41,483 nt of DNA from assembly GCA_016871255.1 (NCBI GenBank), contig VFZH01000018.1:1-41483 (forward strand), in the 5' to 3' direction. This document shows, piece by piece, positions 7,002 to 40,296 of the stretch; position 1 is the first letter of the stretch; every line of letters starts with the position of its first letter. Source of the stretch: Acidimicrobiia bacterium (GTDB lineage Bacteria > Acidobacteriota > Vicinamibacteria > Vicinamibacterales > UBA2999). The translations under genes and the position numbers were made by a program. The notes under the pieces were generated by a model, which made no database searches, had not been told where the DNA came from, and saw only the letters and a list, made by a program, of their open reading frames with translations.

Positions 7002-7898
7002 TCAGGATCGGTCCCGCGTCAGGACGTCGCGCCAGTGCGCGGCCTCGCCGAACGTGTCGGTGAGGCTGTCGCCGCGCGGCAGGTCCGCCCGCAGCGCTCG
7101 AAGCCGCTCGATCAGCTCGTCGAGCGCCCTGCCGATCTCGTCGCCATTGGTGGCCGTGATGTCCCGCCAGACGTCCGGAGGGCTCGAAGCCAGGCGCGTC
7201 GTGTCCACGAGTCCGCGGCCGGCGAGGCCCAGGCCGGATACACCCGCTTCGTTGCCCACGATCGCCATCAGCGCGCTGGCGGTCAACTGGGGCAGGTGGC
7301 TGAGGTACGCGAGCAGGCGGTCGTGCGCCACCGGCTCGAGCGTGCAGGGGCGCGCGCCCAGGCCGCGGGCGAACGCGTACAGACGCTCCACCGCGGCGCC
7401 GGGTGCCTCGCCGCGGGGGGTGAAGATCCAGGGGCGATCCCGGAAGAGATCGGGCCTGGCATGAGCGAGCCCCCCGCGTGCGGCCCCGGCCAGCGGATGG
7501 CCTCCCACGAACGTGAGCCGGGCCGGCAGATCGCCGGCTGCCTCGACGATGTCCCGCTTCGTGCTGCCGACGTCGGTGACGACCGCCGTACCGGTGATGC
7601 AGTCGGCGAGCGACGCGAGGATCGAGATGTTCTCGCGCACCGGGGCGGCCAGCACGACGAGATCCGCCTCGGCCGCGACGATCGGGTCGTCGGCCGCCAC
7701 GTCGATCGCGTGCCGGACCATCGCCTGCTCCAGCACGTCCCTGGTGTCGACGGCGATGACCAGGGCGCGGGGCCAGACCTCCCGCGCCGCCAGCGCGATC
7801 GACCCCCCGATCAGCCCGAGCCCGATGACGGCGACCTTCTCGAAGACCGGAGGCGCCAGGTGGTCGCCCGCCTGGATGACGGGGAGGGATCGGGACAC
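7002..7898 (-). CDS. tyrA: Prephenate dehydrogenase
   Basis: 298 residues. Oxidatively decarboxylates prephenate to 4-hydroxyphenylpyruvate, the Tyr-branch step. The NAD(P)-binding loop GLGLIGGS is at residues 26-33; GGHPLAG and the C-terminal helical region (LSHLPQLTASAL) fit TyrA. There is no ACT domain and no fused chorismate mutase; the mutase is the separate gene at 8954. It is the last gene of the aromatic supraoperon, starting 7 nt after the DAHP synthase stop. An arogenate-specific enzyme is possible, since substrate and cofactor preference depend on residues I cannot judge reliably. Confidence 0.92.
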   Translation of the reverse strand: MSRSLPVIQAGDHLAPPVFEKVAVIGLGLIGGSIALAAREVWPRALVIAVDTRDVLEQAMVRHAIDVAADDPIVAAEADLVVLAAPVRENISILASLADCITGTAVVTDVGSTKRDIVEAAGDLPARLTFVGGHPLAGAARGGLAHARPDLFRDRPWIFTPRGEAPGAAVERLYAFARGLGARPCTLEPVAHDRLLAYLSHLPQLTASALMAIVGNEAGVSGLGLAGRGLVDTTRLASSPPDVWRDITATNGDEIGRALDELIERLRALRADLPRGDSLTDTFGEAAHWRDVLTRDRS

Positions 7899-8953: not shown

Positions 8954-9247
8954 CTACCCTGTTTCTTCTGCGTCGTCTGCCGCGTACCGCTCGGCCCGCC
9001 GCGCCTCGTCCATCACCCGTTCGAAGATGCGGACGACCGCGTCCGCGTTGAGAGGTCCCGACAGCGCCTCTGCCGCCGCCCGGACCCGCGCCAGCACCTG
9101 CTTCTCGCGTTCCGGCTGGTATATCGGCATCTCGATGTCGCGCTTCAGCCGTCCGATTTCGACAGCGCACGCGACGCGGACGTTCAGGAGCCTGACCAGT
9201 TGCTCGTCGATCACGTCGAGCCGGTCCCGCAGCTCCTCGATGGTCAT
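8954..9247 (-). CDS. Chorismate mutase, AroQ class
   Basis: 97 residues from the ATG at 9247; this ATG overlaps the trpA stop as ATGA, which is why I prefer it over the in-frame ATG at 9259. All-helical AroQ domain: [20 protein letters not shown] (helix 1 with the substrate-binding Arg), EIGRLKRD with the conserved Arg/Lys pair, [11 protein letters not shown], and a final helix ending AERYA. It rearranges chorismate to prephenate, feeding Tyr and Phe. The single-domain size and its placement between trpA and aroF are consistent with a free-standing mutase that may be activated by, or bind, the DAHP synthase. No pheA (prephenate dehydratase) is present in this window. Confidence 0.9.
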
Positions 9248-10029
9248 GACCTCAGCCACCGCACGTACTCCTCGACACGACCGGCCAGGTCAGGAGATCG
9301 CCCCGCCTCTGCGATGACGCTCACGAGCGCGCTCCCCACGACCGCCGCATCTGCCCACCGTCCGACCTCCCGGACGTGTTCCGGCTTCGAGATCCCGAAC
9401 CCGAGGGCGACCGGCAGGGGCCCGGCCTGCCTGACACGACGGACCATCTGCTCGGCGCCGTCCGCGATCGCCTCGCGGGCTCCCGTGACACCGAGCCGGG
9501 AAATGACGTACAGGAAACCGCTGCCCAGGCGCGACGCCTGACGGAGACGCCCGTCGCTCGTCGTCGGGCTCAGCAGGAAAATTGTATCAATCTGCCTGGA
9601 CGACAGCATGCCGCGAAACTCGCCGGCCTCGTCGATCGGCAGATCCAGCACCAGGACACCGTCCACACCGGCCGCCGCTGCCCGCTCCGCGAACGCGTCG
9701 AGGCCGAACCGGAAGATGGGGTTGGCGTAGCTGAAAAGCACCAGTCCGGCCTTCAGCTCCGATCGCAGGCGGGCGATCAGGTCCAGGACCGATGCCAGCG
9801 TGGTTCCCGAGGCCAGTGCCCGCTCCGTGGCTCGCTGGATGACCGGGCCATCGGCCAGCGGTTCCGAGAACGGGACGCCGACCTCGATCACGTCCGCACC
9901 CGCCCGGTCCAGGGCCCTCAGGATGTCCGCCGACCGTTCCAGGTCGGGATCGCCTGCGGTGACGTAGGTCACGAGCCCGGGCCGGCCGTCGGCGCGGATC
10001 CGGTCGAATATGGCGGTCAGCCGGCTCAC
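9244..10029 (-). CDS. trpA: Tryptophan synthase alpha chain
   Basis: 261 residues from the GTG at 10029, which overlaps the trpB stop by four bases (GTGA). This start is chosen over upstream in-frame codons because translation then begins [20 protein letters not shown], the normal TrpA N-terminus; upstream sequence belongs to trpB. Cleaves indole-3-glycerol phosphate to indole and glyceraldehyde 3-phosphate and passes indole to TrpB. Seen: YVTAGDPD, the catalytic Glu in [19 protein letters not shown], the VLDLPIDEA segment with the second acidic residue region, and the phosphate-binding [10 protein letters not shown]. Confidence 0.96.
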
Positions 10030-11267
10030 GTTCGTGACTCCCCGTCCAACGGCCAGGATGGCGGCAGCGTCCCGGCGACGGTCTGGACGTCCTTGTCGCC
10101 GCGCCCGGACAGGTTGACCAGTACCAGTGAACCGTCCGGCAGGGTCTTCCCCTCGCGTCGCACGTACGCCACGGCGTGCGCCGACTCGAGCGCCGGGAGG
10201 ATGCCCTCGAGACACGCAAGCGCGCCGAAGGCGTCCACCGCCTCGGCGTCGGTCGCGTATGCGTATTCGGTCCGTCCCTGGTCCCTGAGCCACGCGTGCT
10301 CCGGACCGACGGCCGCGTAGTCGAGTCCGGCGGAGATCGAGTGCGTGAGGTCGATGTTCCCCGCCTCGTTCTGGAGGATGAACGTCCGGGTGCCCTGGAG
10401 CACGCCCACGCTGCCACCGGCGAACCGGGCGGCGTGATGGCCGGGTTCGATGCGCTCACCGCCGGCCTCGATGCCGATCAGCCGGACACCATGGTCCTCG
10501 ATGAAGCCGTCGAAGATGCCGATCGCATTGCTCCCGCCGCCCACGGAGGCCACGACGACGTCCGGCAGCCGCCCCACCTGGTCGAGGCACTGGGCGCGCG
10601 CTTCTCGGCCGATGACCGCCTGGAACTCGCGAACCATCAACGGATAGGGATGCGGGCCGAGCGCCGATCCGAGCAGGTAGTAGGTCGTCGTGACGTTGGT
10701 GACCCAGTCGCGCATTGCTTCGCTGATGGCGTCCTTGAGCGTCCGGCTGCCGGCATCCACGCTCCGGACCTCGGCGCCCAGCAGCCGCATCCGGACGACG
10801 TTCAGCGCCTGCCGCCGCATGTCCTCGGCGCCCATGTACACGCAACACTCGAGGCCGAGCAGCGCGCACGCCGTGGCAGTGGCCACGCCGTGCTGGCCGG
10901 CACCGGTTTCGGCGACGACACGACGTTTGCCCATCCGGCGCGCCAGGAGGGCCTGGCCCAGCGCGTTGTTGATCTTGTGGGCGCCGGTATGCGCGAGATC
11001 CTCGCGCTTCAGCAGAACCCGGATCGCTCCACACTCGGCAGCCAGCCGGCCCGCCTCGTACAGCGGCGTCGGCCGGCCCACGTAATGCCGCAGCAGGCCG
11101 TCGAGCTCGCGCCTGAAACCCGCGTCCGCTCGGGTCGCGAGATAGGCCTCCGTCAGCTCTTCGATCGGTGCCACGAGCGTTTCGGGGACGAACCGCCCCC
11201 CGTAGGGCCCGAAGTACCCGCGAGCGTCGGGATCCCGTCGGCCGACGATCGCCCGCTCAGCGCCCAT
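10026..11267 (-). CDS. trpB: Tryptophan synthase beta chain
   Basis: 413 residues from the ATG at 11267, overlapping trpF by 11 nt. Condenses indole with serine using pyridoxal phosphate. N-terminal [14 protein letters not shown] is the standard TrpB1 signature; Lys98 in [10 protein letters not shown] forms the PLP Schiff base; GGGSNAIG binds the cofactor phosphate. Downstream ends in a region rich in ESAHAVAYV, also expected. The longer in-frame upstream reading is antisense or out of the gene and is not used. Classic partner of TrpA, immediately next in the operon. Confidence 0.97.
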
Positions 11268-11877
11268 CGGACGCCTCTCTGACCTGTTGTACGAACCTGC
11301 GCATCTTCTCCGCGCTCTTGATGCCGGGGGCATCTTCCACCCCGGATGACACGTCCACCCCGAACGGCCGCACGGCGGCAATCGCCTCGGCCACGTTCTC
11401 GGGAGTCAGGCCTCCGGCCAGTACCACCTGCCGCCGCCGGGCCAGTGGCGCCGCCCGCGTCCAGTCGATCCGCTGCCCCGTGCCACCGCGCCGATCCGGA
11501 TCGTGCGCGTCGAGCAGAACGGGCACCGACTCCGGCCATTCGCCGAACACCCGCTCGGCCGTCGCCAGCGACGCAGCCTTGATCACCGGCCGGCCCACCG
11601 CGCCCATCGAGGACGCCGACTCGTCGCCGTGGAGCTGCACGCCGGTCAGCCCGCACTCGGCGACGACGTCCCTGATCTCCCCGGCGGGCTGGTCCACGAA
11701 CACGCCGATGACGCGGCTCCCGTGCGGCAGGTCCCGTACGATCGCGGCGGCCTCCCTGGGGTTCACGTAGCGCGGGCTGGCCGGCCAGAAGACGAACCCG
11801 AGCGCGTCGGCGCCCGCAGCGAGTGCCGCCATGGCGTCCTCGCGCCGTGTGATTCCGCACATCTTGACGAAGGTCAC
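11257..11877 (-). CDS. trpF: Phosphoribosylanthranilate isomerase
   Basis: 206 residues from the GTG at 11877, which overlaps the trpC stop (GTGA). TIM-barrel enzyme of the third Trp step. The N-terminus [12 protein letters not shown] contains the catalytic Cys (residue 7) in the canonical KICG-like motif; [13 protein letters not shown] and QLHGDES follow; [13 protein letters not shown] and [16 protein letters not shown] carry the catalytic Asp and phosphate-binding residues. The sequence after the normal TrpF end overlaps the start of trpB by 11 nt. Complete and unremarkable apart from the tight packing. Confidence 0.95.
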
Positions 11878-12677
11878 GCTGCCTCCGCTCCGACCAGCTC
11901 CGCGACCGCCGCACCCGGATCGGGTGCCGTCATGCAGCGTTCTCCGACCAGGAAGGCCGAGTACCCGCACTCGCCGAGCGCCCGCAGCTCCGACAACGAC
12001 GTCAGCCCGCTTTCGCTGACGGCGGTCACCGCGCGCGGTATGCGGCTGGCGAGCCGCCTGGAGGCCCCTACGTCCACGGCCAGCGTGCGCAGGCTCCGGT
12101 TGTTGACGCCCACCACGCGAGCGCCGGCATCGAGGGCGCGTGCCAGCTCGTCTTCGTCGTGCACTTCCACGAGCGCTGCGAGGCCCAGTGTCCCGGCCTC
12201 CGCCGCCAGCCGTTCCAGCTCGTCGTCGGTCAGCGCCGCCACGATCAGCAGCACGGCATCGGCGCCAGCCGCCCGGGCCTCGTGCAGCTGGTAGGAATCC
12301 ACCACGAAGTCCTTTCGCAGCAGCGGCAGCCCCACCCGATCCCGGACGGCAGCGAGATGCGCCAGCGACCCGTCGAAGAAGGTCGGCTCGGTCAGGACCG
12401 AGATGGCCGCCGCCCCGCCGCGTTCGTACGCCGTCGCGATGCGGACCGGGTCGTAGTCGGCGAGCAGCACGCCTCTGGACGGAGATCGCCGCTTGCACTC
12501 GGCGATCACGTTGATGCGACCCGCGCGCCGGAGCGCAGACTCGAACTCGTCGCCGCGGGGGCGCCGCTGCGCCGCCCGGGCTTCGACGACGCCGAGCGGT
12601 TCGCGCTCGCGCCGCGCGGCAACCGCGCGGCGTGTGGCAGCGACAATCGCGGCCAGCAGATCGGGTGTCCCGCTCAT
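11874..12677 (-). CDS. trpC: Indole-3-glycerol phosphate synthase
   Basis: 267 residues from the ATG at 12677, overlapping the trpD stop by four bases (ATGA). Converts carboxyphenylaminodeoxyribulose phosphate to indole-3-glycerol phosphate. Core motifs: VIAECKRRSPSRG (catalytic Lys), VLTEPTFFDGSL, LLRKDFVVDSYQ (catalytic Lys), VEVHDEDELARAL, VGVNNRSLRT, and AVSESGLTS. The barrel is complete. It is a stand-alone TrpC, not fused to TrpF as in Escherichia coli. Confidence 0.96.
   Translation of the reverse strand: MSGTPDLLAAIVAATRRAVAARREREPLGVVEARAAQRRPRGDEFESALRRAGRINVIAECKRRSPSRGVLLADYDPVRIATAYERGGAAAISVLTEPTFFDGSLAHLAAVRDRVGLPLLRKDFVVDSYQLHEARAAGADAVLLIVAALTDDELERLAAEAGTLGLAALVEVHDEDELARALDAGARVVGVNNRSLRTLAVDVGASRRLASRIPRAVTAVSESGLTSLSELRALGECGYSAFLVGERCMTAPDPGAAVAELVGAEAA

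Positions 12678-13682: not shown

Positions 13683-13690
<8 letters not shown>
12674..13690 (-). CDS. trpD: Anthranilate phosphoribosyltransferase
   Basis: 338 residues from a GTG at 13690 that overlaps the end of trpG by 8 nt. Transfers phosphoribosyl from PRPP to anthranilate. The pyrophosphate-binding motif DSCGTGGDRSGTFNIS and the KHGNRSVSSRCGSAD segment are both intact, as is the FNLIGPLTNPAG motif. The glutamine amidotransferase is a separate gene (trpG) rather than being fused to TrpD. Confidence 0.96.
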
Positions 13691-14267
<577 letters not shown>

Positions 14268-15759: not shown

Positions 15760-17217
15760 TTACCCCGCTGCCCTCGTGCCGCGCGCCTCGACGGCTGCCG
15801 CCATGACGCCGGCCGGCGCCGGCCGGCCCAGCCACCAGGCGAACTGTCGTTCCGCCTGTGCCACGAGCATCGGCAACCCGCCGAGCGTGGCGCACCCCGC
15901 CTGCCTCGCCTCCTCCAGGAGTCGCGTCTCCGCCGGGGTGTAGACGAGGTCGTAGACGAGTCGGCCGCGGAACGGCCCCCCCGGCAACGGAGAGACGCTC
16001 TCGTGGCCGACTCCTCCGAGCGGAGTGCAGTTGACCAGCAGGTCCCAGGAGCCGGGCTCGGGCGGCCACGGGGCCGCGCTCACCCCGAGATCAGCCGCCA
16101 GCGCTTCGGCCTGCGCCGGCTTCCGCGCGTGAACGCGGACCGCGGCACCCGCGGTCCGGAGACCGTACACCACGGCGCGGGCGGCGCCACCGGCACCGAG
16201 GACCGAGACGCGGCTGTCCTCGATCGCCCAGTCCTCGGCCGCGGCGTGCCGGATGAGGGGCGCGAGGAACCCGTCCACGTCCGTGTTGGTCGCTTCCCAG
16301 CCCGGCACCGTGCGCCGCAGCGTGTTGGCCGCCCCCACCGCCCTGGCCCTGTCGTCGGCCCGCGCCGCCGCCGTCAGGGCGTCGCGCTTGAACGGGATGG
16401 TCACACTGGCGCCTCGCACGTCCAGGGCACGCGCCACGCGTTCGAAGTCGTCGAAGTCCGACGCCTCGAGCGGCAGGTACACCGCGTCCACGCCCGCAGC
16501 CTCGAACGCCGCGTTCTGCATGACGGGCGACAGCGAATGCGCGATCGGCGTGCCGACCACGCCGAACAGTGCCGTTCGCGGCCCGACGTCCCGGAAGCGG
16601 TAGCGGCGCAGCATCTCTTCTGCCGGGATCTGACCAGGTGCCACCTCGCGTCCGGCGTACGACCAGCATGACCCGAACCGCCCGGGCAGCAGGCGCGTGC
16701 AGAGCCCTGCTGCGCCCATGGCCAGCGCCACGACGGGCCCATCCCGGTGCAGGTCGATCAGCGGCAGCACGTCGCTGAGGCGTCGCGCCGTCACCGCGAT
16801 CTTCACCACGTCTGCGCCCACCGCCCGCATGGCGCGATGGCGATCTCCCAGATCGGCCGGAACGCCGGCGAAGTCGTGATGGGAGAGCACGACGCGCGTC
16901 CTGCCCCGGCGGCCGACGAGATCGCCGAAGCCGGCCCGCCATTCCACGTCCACCCACTCGGCGCCGCATTCACACGCCCGCTCGAGCACGCGCCTGCGCT
17001 CGTCTTCCGAGCCCGCGAACCGTCCGCCCTCCCAGGTGGGCCGGCAGGTGACGATGGCCGGGCGCGTCCGCCCTTCGAGCGCCAAGGCGACGTCGAGATC
17101 GCGCACCCCGTCCAGACGCAGCTCCACCATGTCGCCCATCGTGGCCGCATCGCGTGCGGCGCGGAGCTCCGCCAGCGTGTCGCCCGTCACGGTTTCGCAG
17201 AGCGCCGGTCGTGTCAC
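15760..17217 (-). CDS. aroDE: Bifunctional 3-dehydroquinate dehydratase / shikimate dehydrogenase fusion
   Basis: 485 residues from the GTG at 17217, preceded by a GGGACAGG ribosome site and lying downstream of the attenuator. Two shikimate-pathway enzymes in one chain. Residues 1-210: type I dehydratase, with the Schiff-base Lys139 in ADVVKIAVTA and the catalytic His in LSHHDF (113-114). Residues 215-485: shikimate dehydrogenase, with PIAHSLSP (224-231), catalytic Lys277 in IPFKRDA, NTDVDG (311-316) and the NADP loop GAGGAAR (341-347). The order dehydratase-dehydrogenase matches the plant-type fusion and is found in some bacteria. First structural gene of the supraoperon, so expression of all ten coupled genes should depend on the leader. 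Confidence 0.95.
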   Translation of the reverse strand: MTRPALCETVTGDTLAELRAARDAATMGDMVELRLDGVRDLDVALALEGRTRPAIVTCRPTWEGGRFAGSEDERRRVLERACECGAEWVDVEWRAGFGDLVGRRGRTRVVLSHHDFAGVPADLGDRHRAMRAVGADVVKIAVTARRLSDVLPLIDLHRDGPVVALAMGAAGLCTRLLPGRFGSCWSYAGREVAPGQIPAEEMLRRYRFRDVGPRTALFGVVGTPIAHSLSPVMQNAAFEAAGVDAVYLPLEASDFDDFERVARALDVRGASVTIPFKRDALTAAARADDRARAVGAANTLRRTVPGWEATNTDVDGFLAPLIRHAAAEDWAIEDSRVSVLGAGGAARAVVYGLRTAGAAVRVHARKPAQAEALAADLGVSAAPWPPEPGSWDLLVNCTPLGGVGHESVSPLPGGPFRGRLVYDLVYTPAETRLLEEARQAGCATLGGLPMLVAQAERQFAWWLGRPAPAGVMAAAVEARGTRAAG

Positions 17218-17258: not shown

Positions 17259-17296
17259 AAAAAAAAAGCCCCCTCAACCGTCTTGGCTGAAGGGGC
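17259..17296 (-). terminator. Intrinsic terminator of the aromatic-operon attenuator
   Basis: On the minus strand, GCCCCTTCAGCC pairs with GGTTGAGGGGGC across a five-base loop (AAGAC): 12 pairs, two of them G-U, followed directly by nine T residues. It is the strongest intrinsic terminator I see in the window and stands inside the leader, 41 nt before the aroDE start, where a plain terminator would make no sense. That location, together with the Trp-rich leader peptide upstream and the alternative pairing of its 5' arm, identifies it as an attenuator. Confidence 0.92.
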
Positions 17297-17346
17297 GCGG
17301 CGGGGTCGGAGCGGGGTACGGCTCAGACGCCTGCTGTCACCCCTTC
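17289..17346 (-). promoter_or_regulatory. Predicted antiterminator of the attenuator
   Basis: GAAGGGGTG (17346-17338 on the minus strand, inside the leader-peptide codons just after the last Trp codon) can pair with CGCCCCTTC (17297-17289): nine pairs, one G-U. The second segment overlaps most of the 5' arm of the terminator, so the two structures exclude each other. A ribosome waiting at Trp13 or Trp20 would leave GAAGGGGTG free and allow readthrough; a ribosome reaching the leader stop codon would cover it and favour termination. The pairing is read from sequence; the mechanism is by analogy with known trp leaders. Confidence 0.78.
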
Positions 17347-17424
17347 GCACGCGAACCAGTACCGCCACCGGGCATCGGTGTCGGGCCAGGTCGTGCCGCG
17401 AAACGAGATGAGCAGGGTCGACAT
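17323..17424 (-). CDS. trpL: Leader peptide of the aromatic-amino-acid operon (Trp/Tyr/Phe-rich)
   Basis: A 33-codon reading frame (ATG at 17424, TGA at 17323-17325) ahead of the attenuator. It has six aromatic residues: Phe8, Trp13, Trp20, Tyr22, Trp23 and Phe24, with the cluster RWRYWF at 19-24. Three Trp codons in 33 is far above chance, and the frame ends 26 nt before the terminator hairpin, as in known amino-acid leaders. No strong Shine-Dalgarno is obvious (GGAG lies about 20 nt upstream). Its product need not be stable; translation itself is the sensor. The mix of Trp, Tyr and Phe codons matches the operon content, which serves all three branches. Confidence 0.86.
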   Translation of the reverse strand: MSTLLISFRGTTWPDTDARWRYWFACEGVTAGV

Positions 17425-17441
17425 GCCGTATCGAATGGTTG

Positions 17442-17471
17442 ACCGTACTCCAGCGGGCGGGAGGCTGTCAA
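17442..17471 (-). promoter_or_regulatory. Promoter of the aromatic supraoperon
   Basis: A perfect -35 TTGACA (17471-17466), an 18-nt spacer and TACGGT (17447-17442) as -10. The start of transcription would fall about 10-15 nt before the leader ATG at 17424. It is back-to-back with the plus-strand promoter of the S55 protein gene. Confidence 0.65.
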
Positions 17472-40221: not shown

Positions 40222-40296
40222 GCGGGAGTAGTTCAGCGGTAGAACGCGAGCTTCCCAAGCTCGATGTCGCGGGTTCGATCCCCGTCTCCCGCTCCA
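40222..40296 (+). tRNA. tRNA-Gly (anticodon CCC)
   Basis: A 75-nt cloverleaf with encoded CCA. Acceptor GCGGGAG pairs with CTCCCGC; D-arm GTTCAGCGGTAGAAC; anticodon stem CGAGC/GCTCG with loop TTCCCAA, anticodon CCC (reads GGG); T-arm with TTCGATC loop. All stems close. The terminal CCA is encoded. Confidence 0.97.

Follow-up and report, generated by a model that had tools for sequence, protein, structure and literature searches.

The window, i.e. the entire 41,483-nucleotide stretch of DNA that was analyzed, carries on its minus strand an eleven-gene aromatic supraoperon that includes tyrA and lacks pheA; the genes were assigned using Pfam and NCBIfam. A short leader region precedes the first gene. 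The features are given below in the order of transcription.

17442..17471, minus strand: promoter of the sigma-70 type, recognized from the sequence as TTGACA (17471-17466), 18 nt and TACGGT (17447-17442)
17323..17424, minus strand: leader-peptide ORF of 33 codons, MSTLLISFRGTTWPDTDARWRYWFACEGVTAGV, with the stop codon TGA at 17325-17323
17367-17365, 17361-17359 and 17358-17356, minus strand: the conserved control codons Trp20, Tyr22 and Trp23, respectively
17338..17346, minus strand: region 2, the antiterminator 5' arm GAAGGGGTG, located within the leader ORF (codons Glu-Gly-Val) and showing covarying pairing with region 3
17285..17297, minus strand: region 3, the common arm CGCCCCTTCAGCC, comprising the antiterminator 3' arm (17297-17289) and the terminator 5' arm (17296-17285)
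17268..17279, minus strand: region 4, the terminator 3' arm GGTTGAGGGGGC
17259..17267, minus strand: T9 tract of the intrinsic terminator
15760..17217, minus strand: aroDE (type I 3-dehydroquinase and shikimate dehydrogenase), the first gene; PF01487, PF08501, PF18317
14290..15756, minus strand: trpE; TIGR00564 above cut-off
13683..14267, minus strand: trpG (anthranilate synthase component II); TIGR00566, PF00117
12674..13690, minus strand: trpD; TIGR01245 above cut-off
11874..12665, minus strand: trpC (IGPS); PF00218
11257..11880, minus strand: trpF (PRAI); PF00697, and NF002298 above cut-off
10026..11231, minus strand: trpB; PF00291
9244..10011, minus strand: trpA; TIGR00262 above cut-off
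8954..9259, minus strand: chorismate mutase type II; PF01817
7906..8949, minus strand: DAHP synthase; TIGR01361 above cut-off
7002..7898, minus strand: tyrA (prephenate dehydrogenase); PF02153, PF20463

Transcription is predicted to start near position 17435, which would leave a 5' UTR of ca. 10 nt, and inspection of the sequence before the leader ATG revealed no Shine-Dalgarno-like motif. The leader peptide carries W13, W20, Y22, W23 and F24. The antiterminator has nine pairs, formed by GAAGGGGTG (17346-17338) with CGCCCCTTC (17297-17289); the terminator has twelve, GCCCCTTCAGCC-AAGAC-GGTTGAGGGGGC (17296-17268), and is followed by nine T. A scan with the terminator consensus returned one match in 1.2 kb (0.4 expected). 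Counted from the first nucleotide of the codon, W20 lies 21 nt and W23 12 nt ahead of the start of region 2; the stop codon is 21 nt downstream of that start. The terminator hairpin ends 50 nt before aroDE, whose start is likely the GTG at 17217. A tRNA gene (Rfam RF00005) at 40222-40293 is unrelated to the attenuator. An earlier note on this DNA had described the promoter, the 33-codon leader, the antiterminator, the terminator and its nine T, had placed an 11-gene aromatic supraoperon behind them and had proposed an acidobacteriotal lineage; all of the named parts were found in their places on the minus strand, the supraoperon was confirmed by the Pfam and NCBIfam assignments, and the lineage is well supported.

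A search for AroDE covered 59 genomes from the family and order to which the window belongs, among them the window's own, and 58 proved to have it. The 500 bases upstream of aroDE were read in all 58 (the window and 57 relatives, representing 15 families of one order), and a Trp-rich leader, a terminator and a candidate antiterminator were located in every one. Typically, the leader motif is YWWWYRTATEGAAGV, the terminator is of the GCCTCTTC type, and the matching GAAGGGGC-type arm lies inside the leader ORF or at its end. The hairpin of L041, the antiterminator positions of L014 and L015, and the leader frames of L022 and L036 were set by hand. The window's own leader is atypical: it reads RWRYWF, a shortened Trp run, as compared to WWWY in most relatives, and the change from TGG to CGG is a single step. 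When the alignment was anchored on region 2, W20, Y22 and W23 of the window fell in register with the relatives. Of the codons that the earlier note had singled out, these three are conserved in the order, as are both stems, whereas W13 and F24 are not conserved across it.

Both stems covary, and the comparison with relatives that the earlier note had proposed was thus passed on both counts, anatomy and covariation. In the 58-row alignment, 95% of the terminator cells and 83% of the antiterminator cells were paired, with changes on both sides in 7 of 12 pairs for each stem; both outperformed every slid control in paired cells and in covariation score. In four relatives (L003, L005, L040 and L043), the stop codon falls inside region 2 and the RNA sequence is kept nonetheless, which argues that this arm is held as RNA and not as peptide.

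A covariance model was built from the 58-row alignment and matched 145 of the 162 genomes of the order. Its single match in the window's own genome was at the leader site (E 2e-19; this site was included in the model). A second search of the 17 genomes without a match, at E<=1e-30, gave no AroDE match in eleven and only partial ones in six; hence, no clear intact aroDE lacking the leader was seen. Two order members that are 97-98% complete (G124 and G135) had no AroDE match at this threshold, possibly as a result of loss or replacement. In 26 genomes outside of the class, the matches were uniformly weak (E 3e-6 or worse). Of these loci, five were inspected, and none was upstream of aro or trp genes, with the exception of a 33% trpB-like match near L109. 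Hence, no claim is made beyond the class. The leader is conserved across the whole order.

The amino acids that might be sensed were assessed from the codon content of the leader tails. Trp accounted for 14.9% (172 of 1151 codons), compared to 0.77% in the operon's own proteins; all 58 leaders contain at least two Trp codons, and these counts point to Trp as the primary conserved signal. Tyr accounted for 7.9% against an operon background of 1.73%, a 4.6-fold enrichment (p 3e-32, although the sites are not independent), and at least one Tyr codon is present in 57 of 58 leaders. Tyr is a probable second signal, the evidence for it being its enrichment and its position. His (1.7% v. 1.93%) was also tabulated. 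Phe was rejected as a sensed amino acid: it occurs in 22 of 58 leaders and stands at background in the tails (3.3% v. 2.97%). Hence, the earlier proposal that Trp, Tyr and Phe are all sensed held for Trp, is probable for Tyr and failed for Phe. Sensing of Trp and probably Tyr, to the exclusion of Phe, fits an operon that has tyrA and no pheA.

It is conceivable, if somewhat doubtful, that the same attenuator senses Trp alone and that the Tyr codons are incidental. Only Trp occurs two or more times in every leader, and the trp genes form the largest block of the operon. The Tyr enrichment itself speaks against this reading, as do the use of both Tyr codons (TAT 57 times, TAC 34 times) and the fact that 56 of the 58 leaders have a Tyr codon placed 11 nt or more ahead of region 2.

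Taken as a whole, the leader is very probably a ribosome-mediated transcription attenuator that senses charged tRNA-Trp and probably tRNA-Tyr. From the observed parts, their conservation, the covariation of the stems and their spacing, we infer ribosome stalling, kinetic competition between the stems and a response to Trp and Tyr. RNA polymerase would start near 17435, and a ribosome would start translating the leader very close to the 5' end of the transcript. With charged tRNA-Trp (and probably tRNA-Tyr) scarce, that ribosome would stall at W20, Y22 or W23, leaving region 2 largely free to pair with region 3 as the latter emerges; the 2:3 pairing would preclude the 3:4 terminator, and the aroDE-trp-tyrA operon would be transcribed. 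A ribosome that reaches the stop codon would instead cover region 2, so that region 3 would pair with region 4 and transcription would end at the T9 tract.

The spacing in the 58 leaders fits this scheme. The median distance from the first Trp codon to region 2 is 22 nt and that from the start of region 2 to the stop codon is 20.5 nt; at this spacing, region 2 would be left open by a ribosome on the control codons and covered by one on the stop codon. For the folding with forced ribosome positions that the earlier note had suggested, the RNA was cut 13 nt beyond the first nucleotide of the A-site codon. Of the 58 leaders, 57 were predicted to form at least five antiterminator pairs before region 4 is made when a ribosome sat on their first Trp codon; when it sat on the stop codon, the antiterminator was predicted in none of the 58, because region 2 is masked. 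In equilibrium folding, the terminator was favoured in almost every leader, including when region 2 was left unmasked. A comparison of equilibrium free energies therefore cannot tell the two states apart, and antitermination would have to be kinetic, which is the generally held view for such attenuators. In RNAalifold, the consensus structure of the RNA ending with region 3 was the antiterminator, and with region 4 added it was the terminator. No consensus helix was returned further upstream, and the 58 leaders revealed no 1:2 protector or pause hairpin at a conserved position; the search for such a hairpin gave a weak overall trend (mean z -0.39), and the window (+0.34) has none there. Upstream of most of the 58 leaders, the promoter pattern TTGAC, 17-18 nt, TAnnnT recurs. 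The end of the -10 element lies a median of 17.5 nt from the leader start and an SD-like motif is present in 3 of 58, which suggests near-leaderless initiation of translation. Attenuation of the eleven-gene operon, the central claim of the earlier note, is well supported by the conserved anatomy and the covariation of both stems.

Four explanations of a different kind were also weighed. It is improbable that the leader and terminator mainly produce a trans-acting small RNA or peptide with cis attenuation as a side product. The rnTrpL and peTrpL of Sinorhizobium act on other targets in trans (PMC7298713), the predicted product here is a terminated transcript of ca. 170 nt in which an ORF lies close to the 5' end, and the leader gave a weak full-length match to Rfam RF02501 (Atu_C7, an sRNA of Rhizobiales; 17263-17415, 20.1 bits v. 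a gathering score of 45, E 0.0066). Against this, the control codons and alternative stems are conserved across the order, while the other residues of the peptide vary widely. A trans role and cis attenuation do not exclude each other. Less probable still is a mainly translational attenuation, in which the hairpin would hide the ribosome-binding site of aroDE. The terminator does end within ca. 15 nt of the aroDE start in about half of the genomes, where its 3' arm (GAAGAGG, GGAGAGG) resembles a Shine-Dalgarno sequence; however, a T-rich tract follows the hairpin throughout, and 50 nt separate the window's hairpin from aroDE. A 3' arm that doubles as a Shine-Dalgarno sequence (e.g. L004, L010, L031 and L054) is possibly a second, translational lock, which is not the case in the window.

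Control by a T-box, TRAP or TrpR, or by an arrest peptide that senses free Trp like TnaC, is very hard to sustain. Such systems do control Trp-related genes elsewhere. However, no Rfam 15 family (Trp_leader, His_leader and T-box included) was found in the leader at gathering score, with only the sub-threshold Atu_C7 match at a lax threshold; no homologue of TRAP (PF02081) or TrpR (PF01371) was found in 21 genomes, in searches that recovered their positive controls; and clustered Trp codons ahead of biosynthetic genes follow a starvation-sensing logic, the opposite of that of TnaC. Finally, a chance resemblance in a GC-rich intergenic stretch can be dismissed, for although short stems and small ORFs are common, it is already refuted by the covariation of the stems and by the conservation of the element in 145 of the order's 162 genomes.

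In the window's order, the his operon is separate, and its leaders were selected by a His-density criterion. All 27 hisG loci scanned (L168-L194) passed, having a His-rich leader (e.g. LHHAHHHHGH), and in nearly all of them an intrinsic terminator follows. In the window's genome, this operon is hisIE-hisG-hisD-hisC-hisB-hisH-hisF-hisA (L186:200-330 and L207, contig C33), with the leader MGRHPHAHRHHHGHPAGRQDCAR and a terminator.

In a sister family that belongs to another order of the same class, the two gene sets are joined: aroDE is followed by a ThiF-family gene, by hisZ, G, D, C, B, H, A, F and IE, and then by trp. Nine such operons were mapped (L156-L163 and L205), several of which are truncated where the contig or the extracted stretch ends; three of the nine had no ThiF match, and one of these also had no hisZ or hisG match. 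A gene of the ThiF/MoeB family of adenylyltransferases directly follows aroDE in several families of the class (L156:3284, L157:13369 and others). Eleven sister leaders were collected (L115, L117-L121, L123, L125, L126, L139 and L141). They read RRWRPxFHxHRYHP, RRWRxxFHHHRYHP or VHHHRHHS and the like, a composite type with His, Trp, Phe and Tyr codons. The terminator before aroDE is closely similar to that of the window's order, and the antiterminator has 8-16 pairs and begins ca. 35-50 nt after the leader stop codon. A third family (G087: L129, L198; G089: L128, L197) has aroDE-thiF and then his genes. Ahead of aroDE in L129 lies a short ORF that encodes SHPVHPVHP, and no GCCTCTTC-type terminator was found there.

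The mean numbers of Trp and His codons per leader were 2.97 and 0.28 before aro-trp operons (n = 58), 0.07 and 6.78 before his operons (n = 27), and 1.36 and 3.18 before aro-his-trp operons (n = 11). These means differ by operon type, which suggests that the control codons follow what the operon makes and serves as an independent test in favor of the attenuator reading. We consider it more likely than not that one attenuator was recoded as operons fused or split, and that the sister leader reads the charging of tRNA-His and tRNA-Trp together (perhaps with Phe and Tyr). Read in this way, it would govern aroDE-thiF-hisZGDCBHAF-hisIE-trpEGDCFBA as a single operon, and, if this is true, a shortage in either the His or the Trp pathway would switch on both.

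The trp attenuators of Proteobacteria (E. coli trpL; RF00513) share with the present element a Trp-rich leader ORF, the starvation logic, an alternative antiterminator and an intrinsic terminator having one arm in common. In E. coli trpL, the antiterminator 5' arm follows the leader stop codon; here, it lies inside the leader ORF, before that codon. Compared to E. coli trpL, the present element, in which no conserved 1:2 hairpin was found, also has a very short predicted 5' UTR without an SD, longer leaders (ca. 22-45 codons) with both Trp and Tyr codons, and aroDE as the first gene of an operon that includes DAHP synthase, chorismate mutase and tyrA. It does not match Rfam Trp_leader RF00513.

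The actinobacterial trp attenuators (Corynebacterium, Streptomyces) are alike in their two or three tandem UGG codons, their GC-rich terminator with poly-U, and a conserved complementary triple common to antiterminator and terminator (PMC1262725). That triple is gGCC-rGCy-GGCC in Actinobacteria (PMC1262725) and GAAGGGGC-GCCTCTTC-GAAGAGGC in the different phylum studied here; the actinobacterial attenuators described precede trp operons or trpS (PMC1262725). In Sinorhizobium meliloti, trpL-trpE(G) (rnTrpL/peTrpL) likewise has a Trp leader and a transcript starting at or near the leader ATG, and hence translation without a Shine-Dalgarno sequence; that attenuator controls trpE(G) only, and trans functions have been shown for it (PMC7298713). 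His attenuators (Gammaproteobacteria, the Bacillus cereus group and others; PMC9413887) pair a His-rich leader with a terminator, as do the his operons of the window's order, whereas in the sister order a single leader ahead of the fused aroDE-his-trp operon holds both His and Trp codons. Aromatic supraoperons listed in a database (Desulfovibrio vulgaris, Enterococcus, Streptococcus; PMC1173090) are also large aro/trp/tyrA clusters with a predicted attenuator, and the part of that source consulted names neither their leader codons nor how they would sense amino acids.

The mechanism is of a known kind. What makes it a variant is the arm inside the ORF, the combination of a Trp and Tyr leader with an operon that joins shikimate, Trp and Tyr genes and, most of all, the His and Trp composite in the sister order. 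A 2010 survey reported leader-peptide systems as shown only in Proteobacteria and Actinobacteria, and almost no attenuator predicted in Acidobacteria had an assigned function (PMC2965389). Neither a leader-peptide attenuator in Acidobacteriota nor a his-trp operon or leader of this type was found in the literature (open-licence papers). A function can now be proposed for an attenuator that occurs almost throughout an order of Acidobacteriota. As neither a TrpR nor a TRAP homologue turned up in 21 genomes, Trp and Tyr synthesis in the order may be controlled mainly by this attenuator. The comparison with the sister order constitutes a natural experiment, in which the control codons of a leader change when gene sets join.
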